Source: Spirochaetaceae bacterium (GTDB lineage: Bacteria; Spirochaetota; Spirochaetia; Treponematales; Treponemataceae). From it: DNA of 49,263 nucleotides. Both the position numbers and the translations under genes were made by a program. Within the stretch, counting starts at the first letter, position 1. Each line of letters starts with the position of its first letter. The notes beneath the pieces were generated by a model that was given only the letters and a program-made list of their open reading frames with translations, did no database searches and was not told where the DNA came from. Below, piece by piece: positions 25,115 to 49,115 of the stretch. The stretch covers positions 1 to 49,263 of the forward strand of contig JAGBFB010000002.1 in NCBI GenBank assembly GCA_017936665.1, in the 5' to 3' direction.

Positions 25115-27943
25115 TTATTCTGTAATTGTTCGTACTAGACGGAAACCACAAATAGTTTTTTCTGATATTGTTGCATGTCTATAGGATACATATCTAGAAT
25201 ATGGTTCTGAAGCAAAATTACCTCCACGAGCAACAAACCTCTTATCACTTTCATCTGGAATTACTACAGGATTTTCAATAAATTCATCAGTAATTGTTAC
25301 CTGCTGCTTATATCCATCGCAAGTCCATTCATACATGTTACTACTCATATCATATAAGCCTAGAGAGTTTGAATTTTTTCTACCTACTTCATGTGTAGTA
25401 TCTGTATCATTCCAAAAATACTTATTAATTTCATTTGAATTAGCTGGTACTCCAGCATAAGCATATTTCCAAACATCACTTGCTGGATTTCCACCTCTAG
25501 CAGCAAATTCCCATTCGGCTTCTGTTGGAAAACGATATCCTTTTTTAGATAAATCTATAACTACATTTGCATTTGTTATATAAGAGTTTGTTTCGTCCAT
25601 TACAACATCTGATACTGTATAAACACAGTGCTCTTCTCCCATTATACATTTTGTTAATTCATTACAAAAAATTACTGCATCATACCATTTAACAGAATCA
25701 ACAGGTCGTAATTTTACTAGTTCATCAGTAGTCTGATTATTTATATATGTACTGGGATTTTCACCCATAACTACTTCATACAATTCTTGAGTAACTTCAA
25801 ATTGGCTCATGGCAAAGGGACTTAACTTCACTTTTCTACCTTTTAAGAAAACACCCTTATACCAAAGATCTGCATCATCTTCAAGATAAGTATTCCAACT
25901 GCTATCATCTTCCATTTCAATTTTTGCTACAGTACCTTTTGGAACAACTACAACTTCGCTGGTTTTATCGTAGATTTTGCCATTAAGTGAGATTCCTTGA
26001 GAATAAACATCTCCTTGGGACTGTTCTGTCGCTGTTTGTACAAGGCGGAAACCGAAACTCCCACCTCTCCAACTTGGAGAAAGATTAAGAGATTCAGATA
26101 TGTTATAATCAGTACTAGAATCATACCAATTATAGCCATAAAGATGAACTTCGGAACTTTCTAAATCTAAATTCCAACAAAATTCCCAAAGATTTCCAGA
26201 CATGTCATATAAGCCTAATTCGTTTGGTTGTTTTAATTTTACTTCGTGACTAGTTCCACTAGAATTTTCACTACACCAAGCAACCATATCTATTGAGTTA
26301 CTTCCTGCGTATTTGTACTGAAAACCTGTAAGTCCGTTTCCACCACGGGCAGCGTATTCCCATTCAGCAGAAGTTGGAAGTCTATACCCATTTGCTTGAA
26401 AATCGCAAGTTGCATTAAACCAAGTTTCAAAATTTTCATGGTTTTCAGAATCTGGAACATCTCCCCATTCATCTGGATTTGTACTTTCATTTATTGTGTA
26501 ACATGGGGTTAAACCTTCGTTAATACTTCGTTTGTTACAATATACAAGCGTATCAAACCAATTTACATGATGAGCTGGATAATTATCACCAATACCTACT
26601 TGTTGCACATCTTCCACTGATTTGTCTGGCCAAGTTCCCATAATGGCTTTATATTCTGCTTGGGTTACTTCGTGGTCGCTTATGTAAAAGTTAGGAATAG
26701 AAACAATTCCACCTTCTTTGAAAATTTCACTTTCTATGTAGCCTTCTGCTGTAATTGCTCCATTTATACTTGCACCTTGAACAAAAACAAACCTTTCTGC
26801 TAATTTCCACTTTGCAAATAAAATAACATCATTGGTAATTGATGATGTAAAATCAAATTTTGTATCTAAAGTAATTCCATTATCAAAAGAAGTATACCAT
26901 CCTTCAAAAACATAGCCGTCTTTGGTTGGTTTTGTTGGTAAAGTTGCGTTCTCTTCATATTTTACAATTTGCGTTTCTACATAACTTCCACCGTTTGCGT
27001 TAAATGTTACAGTGTTAATGTTTCTTGTATAATAAATCTTTACAGTCGTTGAGCCGTCTGCTAAAATTGTTTTTTGTTCAAAAGTATTTACACTAAAACC
27101 TACATAGTTTTTTGCAACAGCTTGAGTTTCTGTTCCAATTATACCTGTTTTACTTTCTGTGTCTACTTCAACAAATGAATATTCATCATCTTCAATATTT
27201 TGTTGGTAATGTTCTACTTTATAAATAATATCAGATTTTGTTATCCACTTTGCATAAAGGGTAATATCACTTGTTACTGGAACTGAAAAATTGTAAGAAC
27301 TATCTTCTGTTGCTCCATTATCTTTTGAGGTATACCAATAACCAAAATTATAACCTTCTTTTTCTGGAGTTGTAGGTTCTGTTACTGTTTTACCTTTTTC
27401 AACTTTTTGAGTTTCTACATAACTTCCGCCAAGACTATTAAATTGTATAATAAAAATTTGTTCATTTTCTATTGTTATTCCTATATCAACATTTGTTTGT
27501 GTTTTTGTTAATTCTAAGTGAACTTTATTATCTTGTGGCTTTATTGTTATTATTTCACTTCTTCCTGCATAAAGTGGATTTGAATCTTCTTCTCTGAAAA
27601 GTTGTGCTTCAAAAATTATATTACTATCAATTGGAACTTCCAAACTTGTTTTTACAATTCCACTTGTATCAACTTTGTTACTTGTTTGTGTTATCAATGG
27701 AAGTTTTTCTATTTCTGCGTTATCTTGATAATTGGCTGCATCATAGGCAAAAATTTTTAAGATATATTCAGTTGCTTCTTGGGATGTTTGATTTCTTGAA
27801 GTTTTTATCAATTTTGATAAATCCAAATTTATGTTAATTGTTGTTTTTTTAGTATCTAGCAAAAAATTTTTACAACTTGTAATTCCAAATAAAATTCCTA
27901 AAATAACTAAAACCGAAAATACAATAATTTTTTTTGACTTCAT
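25115..27943 (-). CDS. Lipoprotein with InlB-like repeats and two formylglycine-enzyme-like (SUMF1) domains
   Basis: 942 residues. A lipoprotein signal ends in ITSC (lipid Cys24). Residues about 165-235 and 309-380 are InlB/Listeria-Bacteroides-type beta repeats (GYNFGYWYTSKDNG, GYVFEGWYTSFDNG, each ending in LYAKW or LFAKW). Between them is a MucBP-like segment (YKVEHYQQN). Two SUMF1/FGE-sulfatase-like domains follow (about 387-660 and 680-942) with YRLPTSAEWEYAARGG and YRFPTEAEWEFAARGG, and each ends in GFRLV. This C-type-lectin-like fold is often used for binding. It is probably surface-exposed. AGGATG precedes the ATG. A poly-G promoter lies upstream. Confidence 0.88.
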   Translation of the reverse strand: MKSKKIIVFSVLVILGILFGITSCKNFLLDTKKTTININLDLSKLIKTSRNQTSQEATEYILKIFAYDAANYQDNAEIEKLPLITQTSNKVDTSGIVKTSLEVPIDSNIIFEAQLFREEDSNPLYAGRSEIITIKPQDNKVHLELTKTQTNVDIGITIENEQIFIIQFNSLGGSYVETQKVEKGKTVTEPTTPEKEGYNFGYWYTSKDNGATEDSSYNFSVPVTSDITLYAKWITKSDIIYKVEHYQQNIEDDEYSFVEVDTESKTGIIGTETQAVAKNYVGFSVNTFEQKTILADGSTTVKIYYTRNINTVTFNANGGSYVETQIVKYEENATLPTKPTKDGYVFEGWYTSFDNGITLDTKFDFTSSITNDVILFAKWKLAERFVFVQGASINGAITAEGYIESEIFKEGGIVSIPNFYISDHEVTQAEYKAIMGTWPDKSVEDVQQVGIGDNYPAHHVNWFDTLVYCNKRSINEGLTPCYTINESTNPDEWGDVPDSENHENFETWFNATCDFQANGYRLPTSAEWEYAARGGNGLTGFQYKYAGSNSIDMVAWCSENSSGTSHEVKLKQPNELGLYDMSGNLWEFCWNLDLESSEVHLYGYNWYDSSTDYNISESLNLSPSWRGGSFGFRLVQTATEQSQGDVYSQGISLNGKIYDKTSEVVVVPKGTVAKIEMEDDSSWNTYLEDDADLWYKGVFLKGRKVKLSPFAMSQFEVTQELYEVVMGENPSTYINNQTTDELVKLRPVDSVKWYDAVIFCNELTKCIMGEEHCVYTVSDVVMDETNSYITNANVVIDLSKKGYRFPTEAEWEFAARGGNPASDVWKYAYAGVPANSNEINKYFWNDTDTTHEVGRKNSNSLGLYDMSSNMYEWTCDGYKQQVTITDEFIENPVVIPDESDKRFVARGGNFASEPYSRYVSYRHATISEKTICGFRLVRTITE

Positions 27944-43669: not shown

Positions 43670-44836
43670 TTATGTTTTTTTTATGATTTTTTTGCAATTT
43701 ACATTTATATCAAAATATTTTTTTATATACTTTTCAAAATACAAAGTTATTTGTTTTTTTCTGAATTTAAATGTTTTATAATGTCCCATAATTCCAAGAT
43801 AGGAATTTACACTTGCTAAACAATTTTGTTTTTCTTCTTCTGATAATTTATGATTATTTGCAAGTTCTGAATAAAATTTTAAAGATTCCACAAAATTATT
43901 TTTTACTCTGTGACTACAAACTGTATAGTTTGGTTTAATAAAAGTACCTAAAAATTCCACGCCATTAAATGCATTTTGCAAATATATTTTTTTTGGATGA
44001 AGATTTACTTGTAATTTTTTCTGTAAAAAAATTCTAGACTGCTTAATTATATATTTTAAAAATTCTTTGTCTTTATGAACAAAAACACAATCATCAACAT
44101 AACGAACATAACATTTTACTTTTAGCGTATGTTTTATAAAATGATCATATTCTGATAAAAAAAAGTTTGCAAAAACTTGACTTGTTAAATTTCCAATCGG
44201 AAGTCCACACCCTTCTTTTGTTGTAAAAAGACTTTTATCTTTTGGAAGAAAATTCCATTCTGAAAAAGGACTTCTTATCATACAATTTTTTGTTGGTTCA
44301 TTAAAAATAATTTCTTTAGATAGATATTTTTCAAAATCATTTGTATCACTTTTATAGTTTTTATCAATAAAGTCAGAAAGTTTTTGCCATAAAAGACTTT
44401 TGGGAATGTTCATAAAAAAGCCTTTTATATCAAGTTTTAAAACATAAGTTTTTGAGTTTCCATTATTTGTTTGACTTTTTAGAAAATGTTCTACTCTTTT
44501 TATTGCAGCGTGAGTTCCTTTACATTTGCGACAAGCGTAACTGTCAAAAATGAAATATTTTTCAAATGTGGAATTAAGTCTGCGAATTAAAATATGATGA
44601 ACAATCCTATCTCTAAAAGGTGCTGCAAAAATTTCTCGACGAACTGGTTTTTCTACCATAAAGCAAGTTGATTTTCCGGGAGTCCAAGTACGATTTTTTA
44701 ATTGATTAAATAATTCAATCAAATTTTGTTCTAAATTAACCTCAAATTCTAAAGCCCCACTCGAATATCTTTTTGTTTTGCGACATTCGTAATATGCTTC
44801 AAAAACTTCTTCTATCGTTATTTCCATATATTTCAT
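43670..44836 (-). CDS. DGR reverse transcriptase
   Basis: 388 residues. It copies the TR RNA into adenine-mutated cDNA. RT motifs are in order: FAAPFRDRIVHHIL (70-84), LDIKGFFMNIP (135-145, first catalytic Asp), GLPIGNLTSQVFANFFLSEY (211-230, with IGNLTSQ typical of DGR rather than retron enzymes), YVRYVDDCVF (243-252, catalytic YVDD) and VEFLGTFI (293-300). There is no maturase or endonuclease domain. The gene starts 54 bases after the TR on the same strand, the classic arrangement. All catalytic residues are intact, so it should be active. Confidence 0.95.
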   Translation of the reverse strand: MKYMEITIEEVFEAYYECRKTKRYSSGALEFEVNLEQNLIELFNQLKNRTWTPGKSTCFMVEKPVRREIFAAPFRDRIVHHILIRRLNSTFEKYFIFDSYACRKCKGTHAAIKRVEHFLKSQTNNGNSKTYVLKLDIKGFFMNIPKSLLWQKLSDFIDKNYKSDTNDFEKYLSKEIIFNEPTKNCMIRSPFSEWNFLPKDKSLFTTKEGCGLPIGNLTSQVFANFFLSEYDHFIKHTLKVKCYVRYVDDCVFVHKDKEFLKYIIKQSRIFLQKKLQVNLHPKKIYLQNAFNGVEFLGTFIKPNYTVCSHRVKNNFVESLKFYSELANNHKLSEEEKQNCLASVNSYLGIMGHYKTFKFRKKQITLYFEKYIKKYFDINVNCKKIIKKT

Positions 44837-44843
44837 AAAAACA

Positions 44844-44868
44844 CCACATAGACTAATTATCTATGTGG
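44844..44868 (-). other. Hairpin between TR and reverse transcriptase start
   Basis: A perfect 9-bp stem (CCACATAGA/TCTATGTGG) with a 7-base loop fills the gap between the TR and the RT ATG. There is no T run, so it is not a terminator. It would be part of the TR RNA and could have a structural role in priming or RT binding (inference). Confidence 0.6.
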
Positions 44869-44890
44869 CAAAAACTGCTTTGTGTAAAAT

Positions 44891-45005
44891 CCTGGAGAAC
44901 TAACACATTGTTATTGTTATTCTTGTTGTTGTTGTTCACATTACCATTGTTGAAATTCAATTTGTATGCGTTATTGTTGTTGGAAGAGTACTGAGAACTG
45001 CTCCA
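44891..45005 (-). repeat. DGR template repeat (TR)
   Basis: Non-coding 115-base copy of the variable repeats. Read on minus from TGGAGC to CTCCAGG it would encode 38 codons, 17 of them AAC or AAT, the hallmark of a DGR template. The first 24 bases and the last 17 are identical to both VRs; the differences in between fall at TR adenines except for one base. It lies between avd and the RT gene. It has no start codon of its own. The shared edge GTTCTCCAGG is the likely initiation (IMH-like) side. Confidence 0.95.
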
Positions 45006-45297
45006 AACATCGCAAAATCTTTTGTTTTATAAAAAGAATTTTTTATAAAAACTATTTCCCCACAAAAAACAATCACTGTCTATTCCCTGATTAAGAGTTT
45101 ATTTTTGATGTAGGAGATTTTGCCGCTTTTACACAAAAGCTTTGCTCGCTTTATATCACCGTAGCAATATAAATTCAGGCAGGCAACTTAATAATTTTAA
45201 TAATACAATTCCGAGTTAAGACATCGTCATTCCGAACTTGTTTCGGAATCTCACCATTATCAATTACTAAATTCCCTATAATTAACGATTTTTGTAA
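45006..45297. other. Non-coding DGR spacer between avd and TR
   Basis: 292 bases without a supported gene. It holds one copy of the palindromic repeat (GTCATTCCGAA/TTCGGAATCT, 45226-45251). Read on minus, the part before the TR is AT-rich and could carry the promoter of the TR RNA, but no convincing hexamer pair is seen. Confidence 0.5.
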
Positions 45298-45639
45298 CTA
45301 TTTTTGTGCGTTACGCCAACCGGTAATTTGCTTTCCAATGTTATCCATAAGCAAGGCAAGTTCTGCTTGTTGCTTAATAGAAATTAATTTTAAATCTTTA
45401 CATAATCGTACTTCTAATTTTACCACCTCAAAATTGTCTAAAAATTGTTCCAAATAAAACACTTTATCTTTGCATTTATTAGCTCTATAAATGCTACGCA
45501 CAAGTAAAATACAATCTCGTTTTAAATCTTGCCCCAAAGTAAATTTGTATTCACGACTAAAATTTGATGTAAGCTCAAATAATCGTAAAGTCATTTTGTA
45601 AACATCTTTAAAAACTGGTAAATCGTAATAAAGTGCCAT
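45298..45639 (-). CDS. avd: DGR accessory variability determinant (bAvd-like four-helix protein)
   Basis: 113 residues, the normal size for Avd. Typical segments are MALYYDLPVFKDVYK, NFSREYKFTLGQDLKRD, VRSIYRAN and a C-terminal helix ending GKQITGW. Avd forms a basic pentameric barrel that binds the RT and TR RNA and is essential for mutagenic retrohoming in the Bordetella phage system. The start is ATG 45639, preceded by CGAGG at 8 bases. A longer in-frame reading to 45813 would run through a palindromic repeat and is rejected. The order target-avd-TR-RT is canonical. Confidence 0.9.
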   Translation of the reverse strand: MALYYDLPVFKDVYKMTLRLFELTSNFSREYKFTLGQDLKRDCILLVRSIYRANKCKDKVFYLEQFLDNFEVVKLEVRLCKDLKLISIKQQAELALLMDNIGKQITGWRNAQK

Positions 45640-45654
45640 AAATAAAACCTCGGG

Positions 45655-45750
45655 CTGTCCAAAAAGTATAAACCGTAGTGTCATCCTGAACATTGTATGT
45701 AGTGTAGATGCCGAAATAAATTCGGCATCTACACTACTTTTTAGACAGAC
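45655..45750. repeat. Palindromic repeat upstream of avd (nested inverted repeats)
   Basis: A perfect 17-bp stem (45699-45715 with 45721-45737) around a 5-base loop contains GATGCCGAA/TTCGGCATC. It is preceded by GTCATCCTGAAC (from 45680). An imperfect outer inverted repeat, CTGTCCAAAAAGTA versus TACTTTTTAGACAG, bounds the unit. It belongs to the same family as the unit at 12846-12920 and looks like a small non-autonomous element. Confidence 0.7.
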
Positions 45751-45753
45751 TGG

Positions 45754-45781
45754 ACAACAAAAGGCAAATGCCTTTTGTTGT
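45754..45781. other. 13-bp palindrome downstream of VR2 (candidate cruciform)
   Basis: Perfect inverted repeat ACAACAAAAGGCA/TGCCTTTTGTTGT with a 2-base centre. Neither strand has a T run after it, so it is not a terminator. It lies 57 bases past the 3' end of VR2 and after the target stop. In the Bordetella phage DGR a hairpin just after VR is needed for target recognition; a similar role here is inference, since the distance is larger. Confidence 0.6.
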
Positions 45782-45821
45782 AAAATAGTTAAATAGTTAA
45801 CATACAATACCACCTACGGTG

Positions 45822-48800
45822 CTATTGTGCGTTAAAAGCCTGGAGAACTAACACATCGTAATTGACACTCTTGTAGTAGCTGCCCACACTACCATAGTAG
45901 AAACTCAACCTGTATGCGCCCTTGTAGCTGGAAGAGTACTGAGAACTGCTCCAATAATAACTTGTTCCTAAAGTAAAGCCACCGGCTGCTGTAAGACCTT
46001 CCTGTATAACTGTTTTATTTCCGTACACTTGATACAACTCTGCTATACTTGGTAAATACCAACCATCTGCATAATCTGTACTTGTAAGTCCTGCTGTTGT
46101 ACCATAAGTATTAGCAAAGTTAAAGGCTGGATAATTTGTTGCTGCATCTACACTTCCTGTTGGATCTATACTACAAATGTATTCCCAGTTATCACTTCCA
46201 TCCATATCACCACTTTCTGTAGTTCCTTGAATTTCTGTAAAGTTTGTATTGTATCCTGTTGTTCCACTTGGTGCCCACTGTAAAGTACTTGATGATTTTT
46301 GTAAGCCTACTCCTATTGCTTGACCTCCATTGTTTTTAACGCCTACTACAACAGCTATAGGTGTCATTGTATTAGAATTAAAATTTTCTTTTGTTACAAA
46401 ACTACCATCTGATAAAACAATGTCGCCAATATTTTCACTTGAAAAACAATTAGCAGAACTTAATACTTTTACGGTGCCTGTGCTACTAGAACTTCCACAT
46501 GTTACTGTAATATAAGATGTTACTACAGTACCAGTGCAAGTTATTGTTGCTGTAACTTCTGTATCACTAACATATTTTACATTTTCAAAACTTGCATCAC
46601 TACAGGTTACAGGATGTCCTTTTAAATTATTACCAGTTATTGTAACAACTAAATCACCTGTATAACCTTCACCAGCTGTTTCTATTTCTACACTTGTAAT
46701 ACTTGGGGTAGTTGTTACTTCATAATTGTTAAATTGTTCACAGTTAAAAGCCTGGAGAACTAACACATCGTTATTGTCATTCTTGCCGTCGCCGTAGTAC
46801 ACATCACCATTGTTGAAATTCAATAAGTATGCGTACTTGTTGCCGGAAGAGTACTGAGAACTGCTCCAATAATAACTTGTGCCAATTGTAAATCCACCTG
46901 CTGCTGTAAGACCTTCCTGTATAACTGTTTTATTTCCGTACACTTGATACAACTCTGCTATACTTGGTAAATACCAACCATTCTTATAATCTGTACCTGT
47001 AAGTCCTGCTGTTATTCCATAAGTATTAGCAAAGTTAAAGGCTGGATAATTTGTTGCAGGATATACTGTACCTTCTGTATCAACTTTACAAATTTCAGCC
47101 CAGTTATCACTTCCATCCATATCACCACTTGTTGCAGTTCCTTGAATTTCTGTAAAGTTTCTATTGTATCCTGTTGTTCCACTTGGTGCCCACTGTAAAG
47201 TACTTGATGATTTTTGTAAGCCTACGGCTTTTCCTGTTATACCACCATAAGTAGTAGATGCAATAACTCCAAATGCTTTAGAAATTTGCTCATCAGGAAC
47301 ACCGTATTGTACATCTTCTGCTTTCATTTTTGTTCCGTCGGTAAATAGAATATCACCTACAGAAAAACATTTATTTGATTCTACAACATTGTATGAGGCA
47401 CAACCACTTGCTGTGCCACAATTTATTGTTACTAGATGACTACCTACAGAATTATTAATTTTTAATTTTGCTGTAGCTTCTGTGTTACTTACATAGTTTA
47501 CATTAAAAATATTAGAATCTTGGCTTGTAATGTCATAAGCTAGCAAGTTTTCGCCAGTAATTCTTACAGAAATTGTTCCTGTGTAAGTCTCACCTATTGT
47601 TGAGGTTTCTAGTTCTACATTTGCAATTTGTGCATCGGAATATTCATAACATTTAAATTCATTACTGAATTTATGGAATGCCCAAACATAGTTAGAATTT
47701 GTTCCTCTATCAACGTTTTCGATTTTTCCAGTATAATAATCTAATTTATATGCCGTTTGCCCAGGTGCAGTTGGTACAGATGAACTCCAAAATCCTCTAC
47801 ATGTGTACTCACCAAGAGTATCATCGTAGGTATATGGCAAAGTAATTTCAAGATTTGCTAAAGAAGATTTTATTGTGCTTATATTTTTATGCATCTGATA
47901 CAATTCACTAATAGCTGGAAGATACCAACCATCTGCAAAATCTGTTCCAGTTAAATCTGCATAACTTGCATAAATATTTGTAAGATAAAAGGCTGGATAC
48001 ATTGATGCAACCTGTGAACCTTTTGCAGTTGCATCATCAACACTACAAATATATTCCCAGTTATCACTTCCGTCTAAGTCGCCTGTAAATGTATAACCAT
48101 AGCTGGAAGAACCACTTATTCCTGTTGTAATTTCTGCCAAATATGTATCAATACCAATAGGAGAAGCAGTCCATTTTGATTCATTTGTAGAAAATTGTGT
48201 TCCTAAAATCAATGGAATGTTAGAATCTGTTATTAAAACTATACCAAAGATTTTTGCTCGCTCTTCTTGTGTTAATTCAGAAAAATATTCTTTTCGTACA
48301 TAAGTCTTATCAGTTAAAACATAATCTCCTGTTCTTAATCCTTCTGGAACTACAATTTCATCGTTTTTTGCAATTATTGTTGTATTTGTTGCTTCACTTA
48401 AATTTCCTGTAGTATCTTTTGTTTTTACAGAAATACTATATTCACTATCATCGGCTGCAATTCCTTGAATCACTGCAGAAGAATATGATTTATCAAAAGT
48501 AAGTGTAGTTTTTTCAGATGAGCTAGTTTTACCGTAGTCAATCACTGTTCCTGCAAAATCTGTATCTTGTGGATTTGTCCAAGAAACTGTAATTTGAAGT
48601 TGCTCGGCTGAATATACAGCAGTAAGATTTGTTACTTGTGCTGGTGGAGTTGTATCTGTATTTTCTGGCTGAGTATTTTCGCCACCTGATGAGCCGCCAC
48701 CTGAAGGATCATCATTTTCGCCAGAACCATTAGCCGTAATAGAAACAGCTCTACTTGTTCCTGTTGAATAATTAAGGCTATTATCATAGGTTTTTACAGT

Positions 48801-49115
48801 AAAAGTATACTCAGTTCCAGTTCTCAAACCTGATACAGTAAAAGTTGTTACTGATTTTCCTAAACTAATAGGACTTGCTAAAATTCCTTCAGCAGGATTC
48901 ATACTGATTTGAACCCCTGCAAAATCCGAATCTGTTGGATTTATCCAATTTAAGACAGCATTTTCATTCACTGCACTTACTACAAAAGTAGATACTTCTG
49001 CTGGTGGTGTTGTATCTGTAGTTACTTCTGACTCTGGATCTTTACATCCAACAAAACAGAACATTAAACTTATTGCCACAATAATAGTAACAATCCACGA
49101 AAAATGTTTTTTCAT
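45822..49115 (-). CDS. DGR target lipoprotein with two variable repeats
   Basis: 1,097 residues from ATG 49115 (GAGGAG upstream). The lipoprotein signal ends in FVGC (Cys24). Two fibronectin-III-like domains follow (about 38-128 and 155-250) with a Gly/Ser linker. Then come three DUF1566/C-type-lectin-like modules (about 260-485, 595-795 and 895-1097), each with GWYLP and WSSS motifs, joined by two Ig/IPT-like domains (about 495-590 and 800-890). Modules 2 and 3 end in VR1 and VR2; module 1 has a diverged, fixed equivalent (FWSSSVPTAPGQ). It is probably a surface adhesin or receptor with two diversified binding faces, like TvpA of T. denticola in concept. Confidence 0.92.
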   Translation of the reverse strand: MKKHFSWIVTIIVAISLMFCFVGCKDPESEVTTDTTPPAEVSTFVVSAVNENAVLNWINPTDSDFAGVQISMNPAEGILASPISLGKSVTTFTVSGLRTGTEYTFTVKTYDNSLNYSTGTSRAVSITANGSGENDDPSGGGSSGGENTQPENTDTTPPAQVTNLTAVYSAEQLQITVSWTNPQDTDFAGTVIDYGKTSSSEKTTLTFDKSYSSAVIQGIAADDSEYSISVKTKDTTGNLSEATNTTIIAKNDEIVVPEGLRTGDYVLTDKTYVRKEYFSELTQEERAKIFGIVLITDSNIPLILGTQFSTNESKWTASPIGIDTYLAEITTGISGSSSYGYTFTGDLDGSDNWEYICSVDDATAKGSQVASMYPAFYLTNIYASYADLTGTDFADGWYLPAISELYQMHKNISTIKSSLANLEITLPYTYDDTLGEYTCRGFWSSSVPTAPGQTAYKLDYYTGKIENVDRGTNSNYVWAFHKFSNEFKCYEYSDAQIANVELETSTIGETYTGTISVRITGENLLAYDITSQDSNIFNVNYVSNTEATAKLKINNSVGSHLVTINCGTASGCASYNVVESNKCFSVGDILFTDGTKMKAEDVQYGVPDEQISKAFGVIASTTYGGITGKAVGLQKSSSTLQWAPSGTTGYNRNFTEIQGTATSGDMDGSDNWAEICKVDTEGTVYPATNYPAFNFANTYGITAGLTGTDYKNGWYLPSIAELYQVYGNKTVIQEGLTAAGGFTIGTSYYWSSSQYSSGNKYAYLLNFNNGDVYYGDGKNDNNDVLVLQAFNCEQFNNYEVTTTPSITSVEIETAGEGYTGDLVVTITGNNLKGHPVTCSDASFENVKYVSDTEVTATITCTGTVVTSYITVTCGSSSSTGTVKVLSSANCFSSENIGDIVLSDGSFVTKENFNSNTMTPIAVVVGVKNNGGQAIGVGLQKSSSTLQWAPSGTTGYNTNFTEIQGTTESGDMDGSDNWEYICSIDPTGSVDAATNYPAFNFANTYGTTAGLTSTDYADGWYLPSIAELYQVYGNKTVIQEGLTAAGGFTLGTSYYWSSSQYSSSYKGAYRLSFYYGSVGSYYKSVNYDVLVLQAFNAQ
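45839..45953 (-). repeat. DGR variable repeat VR2 (C-terminal)
   Basis: 115 bases, residues 1055-1093 of the target. Hand alignment to the TR gives 20 substitutions, all at TR adenines, plus one T-to-G (read on minus) that VR1 shares. Asn codons of the TR become Ser, Tyr, Gly, Val and Asp codons. There are no stops. Confidence 0.95.
45839..46310 (-). repeat. Duplicated module block, copy 2
   Basis: VR2 and about 355 bases on its 5' (sense) side are very similar at the DNA level to 46751-47225, with long identical runs such as the segment around 46016-46071. This implies recent duplication or gene conversion of a whole diversified module. Confidence 0.85.
46751..46868 (-). repeat. DGR variable repeat VR1 (internal)
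   Basis: 118 bases, residues 750-789. It aligns to the TR with 13 adenine substitutions, the same single non-adenine difference as VR2, and one extra codon in the AAC run. The reading frame continues for 308 residues after it. Confidence 0.93.
46751..47225 (-). repeat. Duplicated module block, copy 1
   Basis: Partner of 45839-46310. Differences between the copies lie in short clusters, while most of the block is identical by eye. Confidence 0.85.

Follow-up and report, generated by a model that had tools for sequence, protein, structure and literature searches.

An apparently cellular diversity-generating retroelement in a Treponema-like spirochete, with one template repeat and three variable repeats in lectin-like lipoproteins

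Introduction

In the diversity-generating retroelement (DGR) of phage BPP-1, the order of elements is mtd with its variable repeat (VR), avd, the template repeat (TR) and brt, and removal of the stem-loop severely but incompletely impairs homing (PMC12875486). VRs usually lie at the C-terminus of their targets, a position that one survey explains by intergenic cis elements (PMC8144416). Genes with several VRs are already known from Marichromatium (PMC3521204) and from Thiohalocapsa DGR 4/5 (PMC10907252), and 31 such cases were counted in a 2019 survey (PMC6642488). Targets in trans have been published for Treponema, and both gain and loss of DGRs have been described among T. denticola isolates (PMC4891356). 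The usual order of changes made by DGRs is G, then T, then C (PMC3521204), and it has also been proposed that AAC repeats in these elements slip by multiples of three (discussed in PMC12875486). Here we analyze a DGR cassette found on a spirochete contig of 49,263 nucleotides, hereafter the window.

Organization of the cassette and its host genome

The window is an entire contig (C40) of a source genome of 2.58 Mb that is 99% complete and whose named close relatives are Treponema MAGs. The cassette spans positions 43670-49115. The initial annotation had described it as a complete DGR lying on one strand in canonical order, and all of the claimed parts were found: on the minus strand, the gene of the target lipoprotein (49115-45822) is followed by Avd (45639-45298), TR (45006-44885) and the reverse transcriptase (RT; 44836-43670), which is the order of BPP-1. 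That annotation had not included a third VR elsewhere in the genome, nor two secondary structures: a stem-loop downstream of VR2 and, separating TR from RT, a hairpin resembling a terminator. The genes adjoining the cassette, judged by their translations, are presumably yajC, secD, secF and other housekeeping genes, and with such neighbors the cassette looks cellular rather than phage-borne. No relative of the window RT was found in the viral contigs scanned with it, so that no phage carrier of the cassette was identified, and annotated phages encode only distant RTs, the best being below 40% identity among the matches listed. Searches of the window against Rfam returned two tRNAs only, with no match at TR. 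Two strong palindromes are present between the target gene and Avd (45699-45737 and 45755-45782), one of them terminator-like on the plus strand.

Reverse transcriptase and Avd

The RT (388 aa) contains the IGNLTSQ and YVDD motifs reported initially, the former in motif 4, where it agrees with the (I/L/V)GxxxSQ pattern of DGR-clade RTs. It is matched by the Pfam RVT_1 profile, and among solved structures its best match is bRT of BPP-1 (PDB 8ub7, E 5e-28), versus E 5e-8 for a group II intron RT. In a phylogeny of 39 RTs, the window RT falls on the DGR side, grouping with RTs of the Treponema family, Bacteroidota and phages (support 100/99) and is separated from the group II RTs (support 100/100); BPP-1 and some of the phage sequences form long branches in this tree. 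The 113-residue Avd-like gene is likewise confirmed by Pfam (bAvd, E 2.1e-19) and PHROG ('Avd protein of DGR', E 1.7e-22), while its NCBIfam score of 59 bits lies under the curated cut-off of 80.

Other RT sequences were also encountered. At L002 (G000:C22:23818-23922), 35 residues of the C-terminus of a DGR-type RT persist (66% identical), apparently left over from an earlier copy. Another RT gene of the source genome, with a 367-aa frame (G000:C4:14793-15440, L141), is weakly similar to group II RTs and was missed with the window RT as query. Finally, a second lineage of RTs, with the motifs IGNLTSQ and YMDD, occurs in many of the family's genomes (L039-L057) and is separate from the clade of the window RT.

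Template repeat and variable repeats

TR is 122 nt long (44885-45006, minus strand) rather than 115 nt as first annotated. Its description as rich in Asn codons is borne out: in the frame of the target it reads WSSSQYSSNNNNAYKLNFNNGNVNNNNKNNNNNVLVLQDF, with 17 Asn codons. Two VRs are found on the same strand in the target gene, namely, the internal VR1 (46745-46869, 125 nt) and the C-terminal VR2 (45833-45954, 122 nt). The annotation had correctly placed the VRs in a lipoprotein and had missed VR3, which a whole-genome search located in a second lipoprotein on another contig (C42:15639-15760). As noted initially, the adenine bias is nearly perfect. VR1 has 15 mismatches to TR, 14 of them at TR adenines, and a 3-nt insertion; VR2 has 22 mismatches, 21 at adenines, with no indel; and all 19 mismatches of VR3 (19/19) are at adenines (hypergeometric p of 8e-6, 3e-9 and 2e-9, respectively). 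One of these changes is common to the three VRs, an A to C at TR position 117 that probably represents an IMH*/IMH difference and not mutagenesis; setting it aside leaves 13, 20 and 18 true mutagenic changes in VR1, VR2 and VR3, respectively. Over the three VRs, the adenine-site changes are to G (32), T (17) and C (5, three of them the IMH change), which is the usual order.

Outside of the adenines, an AAT to AAG change is shared by VR1 and VR2 and is present in neither TR nor VR3. The insertion in VR1 amounts to one extra codon within the AAC-repeat part of the sequence. Together, the shared T to G and the extra codon suggest that VR1 and VR2 may have been copied from a TR not identical to the present one. 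A change of TR after homing and slippage in the AAC repeat are equally possible sources of this mismatch; AAC-type runs of relatives also display three- or six-base indels.

Target lipoproteins and the variable domain

The product of the target gene (45822-49115, minus strand) is a putative lipoprotein of 1097 aa with a lipobox-like ...CFVGC start, followed by two fn3-like domains and three Lcl_C (C-type lectin) domains; Pfam recovers Lcl_C in three stretches (E 2e-20) and fn3 in two. VR1 is located in lectin domain 2 and VR2 in lectin domain 3. An AlphaFold model of domain 3 (pLDDT 76.5, pTM 0.79) matches the C-terminal domain of Legionella Lcl (Foldseek E 3.8e-4; VIA Z 12.0, rmsd 3.7 over 128 residues) as well as other C-type lectins. 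On the basis of this model, the variable domain is predicted to be a C-type lectin fold closest to that of Legionella Lcl.

The second target is a lipoprotein of 1205 aa (L024:4091-7708, G000:C42). Its middle lectin domain contains VR3, and its third lectin domain has a VR-like stretch that no longer matches TR. Genes for IS3-type transposases are found just downstream (L024:8097-9424). The window also encodes a 942-aa putative lipoprotein (25115-27943) without a VR, in which two FGE-sulfatase-like stretches were recognized by eye; it is possibly another protein with the C-type lectin fold.

Homing into the VRs after divergence of the surrounding domains

The window gene contains lectin domains 2 and 3 as a tandem duplication, and the paralogous lipoprotein on C42 provides a further copy, so that changes within VRs can be compared with those in the flanks. 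For this comparison, VR sites were split into 49 TR-adenine sites and 73 non-adenine sites. Between the coding flanks of domains 2 and 3, 30 of 240 sites differ; these differences involve all four bases and are most frequent at third codon positions (14/30). By contrast, the 22 sites that distinguish VR1 from VR2 are all TR adenines, with differences at 0/73 non-adenine sites (Fisher p 4e-4). The flanks of the C42 copy differ from those of the two window domains at 61/237 and 51/237 sites, versus 1/73 non-adenine sites between VR3 and each window VR (p 2e-7 and 8e-6, respectively). Thus, the duplicated domain has drifted by 12-26% around the VRs and the 73 non-adenine VR positions by 0-1, indicating that all three VRs were overwritten from TR after divergence of the domains and genes. 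This contrast is the strongest evidence obtained here for recent homing into each VR, the internal ones included, and the claim of mutagenesis in the recent past is accordingly well supported by these sequence comparisons.

Two explanations that dispense with separate homing were weighed against the same data. The T to G shared by VR1 and VR2 relative to TR could suggest that gene conversion between the tandem domains homogenized the two repeats. Conversion, however, would copy the letters at adenine sites too, and it is exactly there that VR1 and VR2 disagree (22/49, with no difference at non-adenine sites), which makes this account very improbable. Alternatively, the adenine bias could have arisen without any retroelement, by ordinary divergence and diversifying selection on Asn-rich loops after duplication; Asn codons being A-rich, such selection would be expected to strike adenine sites often. 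However, no site with C or G in TR has changed in any VR, T sites account for at most one difference (the shared AAT to AAG), and synonymous third-position changes are absent from the VRs, against 14 of 30 flank differences at third positions. Given also that RT, Avd and TR adjoin the target, divergence under selection is scarcely credible.

We therefore consider it very probable that the locus is a cellular DGR of a Treponema-like chromosome, in which one TR serves three VRs and the product is multivalent and lectin-like. By analogy with BPP-1, TR would be transcribed, and RT together with Avd would copy the TR RNA into cDNA, placing random bases opposite template adenines; the cDNA would then replace a homologous VR. 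The single TR would supply both repeats of the target lipoprotein in the window, VR1 and VR2, each in one of its tandem lectin domains, as well as VR3 in the paralogous lipoprotein encoded elsewhere. The expected outcome is a multivalent, probably surface-exposed and ligand-binding protein, the binding faces of which would change independently.

Distribution and decay in related genomes

The initial annotation had proposed a search for the cassette in related genomes. Among 274 genomes of the family, RT matches at E 1e-20 or better were found in 29 and Avd matches in 14. In eight genomes, RT and Avd are accompanied by a TR of the genome's own and by a VR with adenine bias, and the order of these parts varies. 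The two same-genus genomes examined, both incomplete, contain neither RT nor Avd, and they were rejected as a source of alternative VR alleles, the one lectin homologue found in them (in G002) mismatching TR. Decay is also evident in the family. In G030, the RT is truncated and neither Avd nor a detectable TR is present, and Avd relics with stops are found in five genomes. A T. bryantii MAG encodes a 1680-aa lipoprotein with four tandem VR-like Lcl_C domains (L119:911-5953, G052:C15). These four repeats were tested as VRs of the TR of that genome, with no match; the protein may once have been the target of a since-lost TR that resembled the one in the window.

Cis elements and homing into internal variable repeats

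The 3' end of TR, GGATTTTAC, is followed by ACAAA; it resembles an IMH* and is found again in TRs of relatives. The corresponding VR sequence is GGCTTTTAA, which constitutes a putative IMH*/IMH-type difference, and an A/G to C change between TR and VR is likewise seen in the relatives G052, G116, G120, G112 and G113. The TR 3' end GGATTTTACACAAA is found with one or two changes in relatives with otherwise different TRs, the VRs of which have GGCTTT instead. Between TR and RT, a hairpin followed by T5 (44842-44870, minus strand) is terminator-like, and the TR RNA may end there. Similar hairpins follow TR in L085 and L088. However, none was found in L078 and L082-L084, and the hairpin was therefore rejected as a defining conserved RNA element.

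A predicted stem-loop (45797-45835, minus strand) overlaps both the stop codon and the 3' terminus of VR2. It occupies the place of the BPP-1 target stem-loop and is comparably strong (DNA fold z of -3.4 to -3.7, versus -3.4 for the BPP-1 stem-loop as control). It is present in a single copy in the genome. DNA folding detected no stem-loop at the same place downstream of VR1 and VR3, nor 3' of VR in most relatives. The initial statement that every catalytic and pairing element is intact holds for the ORFs and is slightly too strong for pairing, given that a BPP-1-like stem-loop follows VR2 and not VR1.

The distribution of the stem-loop bears on whether the DGR still works. It could have been active recently and now be idle or only part-working, for example, with cDNA reaching only VR2, the copy with the stem-loop. 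The imperfect step between TR and the VRs (the T to G shared by VR1 and VR2 and the extra codon of VR1) and the decay seen in relatives are consistent with such a state. However, the ORFs of RT, Avd and target are all intact, and the non-adenine sites of every VR are almost untouched despite the drift of their flanks. We consider an idle or part-working DGR unlikely; judged by its intact sequence, the element may still be active. Internal VR1 and VR3 were homed into even though they have no stem-loop at that place. VR1 and VR2, located in one gene and unlike in their downstream stem-loop, consequently form a natural internal control for the cis needs of VRs. We tentatively suggest, at somewhat less than even confidence, that this lineage retrohomes efficiently into internal coding VRs without a stem-loop, offering matched sites with (VR2) and without (VR1, VR3) this element and giving one lipoprotein two independently evolving binding faces.

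Comparison with known systems

The DGR described here shares with that of BPP-1 the gene order on one strand, a homologous RT (PDB 8ub7), Avd, adenine-specific differences and, as predicted by DNA folding, a stem-loop just after the C-terminal VR. Unlike BPP-1, in which the DGR is part of a phage, it is chromosomal with housekeeping neighbors; the targeted protein is a lipoprotein in which lectin domains are arrayed in tandem, it has three VRs, one of them in trans, and its TR-RT spacer is only about 48 nt. Similarity to Legionella pneumophila Lcl is confined to the fold of the C-terminal domain (PDB 8q4e), with sequence identity of 14-21%. Tandem C-type lectin domains with VRs in one protein are shared with Thiohalocapsa PB-PSB1 DGR 4/5 (PMC10907252) and Marichromatium purpuratum (PMC3521204), the targets of which are, however, vWA-domain proteins of putative conflict systems, as opposed to the fn3-lectin lipoprotein of a spirochete. 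Since tandem VRs and trans targets have both been published, the DGR is ordinary in kind. What it adds is a well-preserved spirochete example in which a single template serves a pair of lectin domains within one lipoprotein plus another domain in trans. It is valuable because it lets VRs that have a stem-loop be compared cleanly, in a natural setting, with VRs that lack one. The TvpA-type DGR of T. denticola (PMC4891356) is likewise from a spirochete, with lipoprotein targets of the C-type lectin fold and one TR for several genes in trans. It differs in having an HRDC accessory gene and FGE-type targets encoded by as many as seven separate genes, whereas the DGR studied here combines Avd and Lcl_C-type domains with a pair of VRs in a single gene; changeable surface lectins, as proposed here, accord with the known biology of T. 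denticola.
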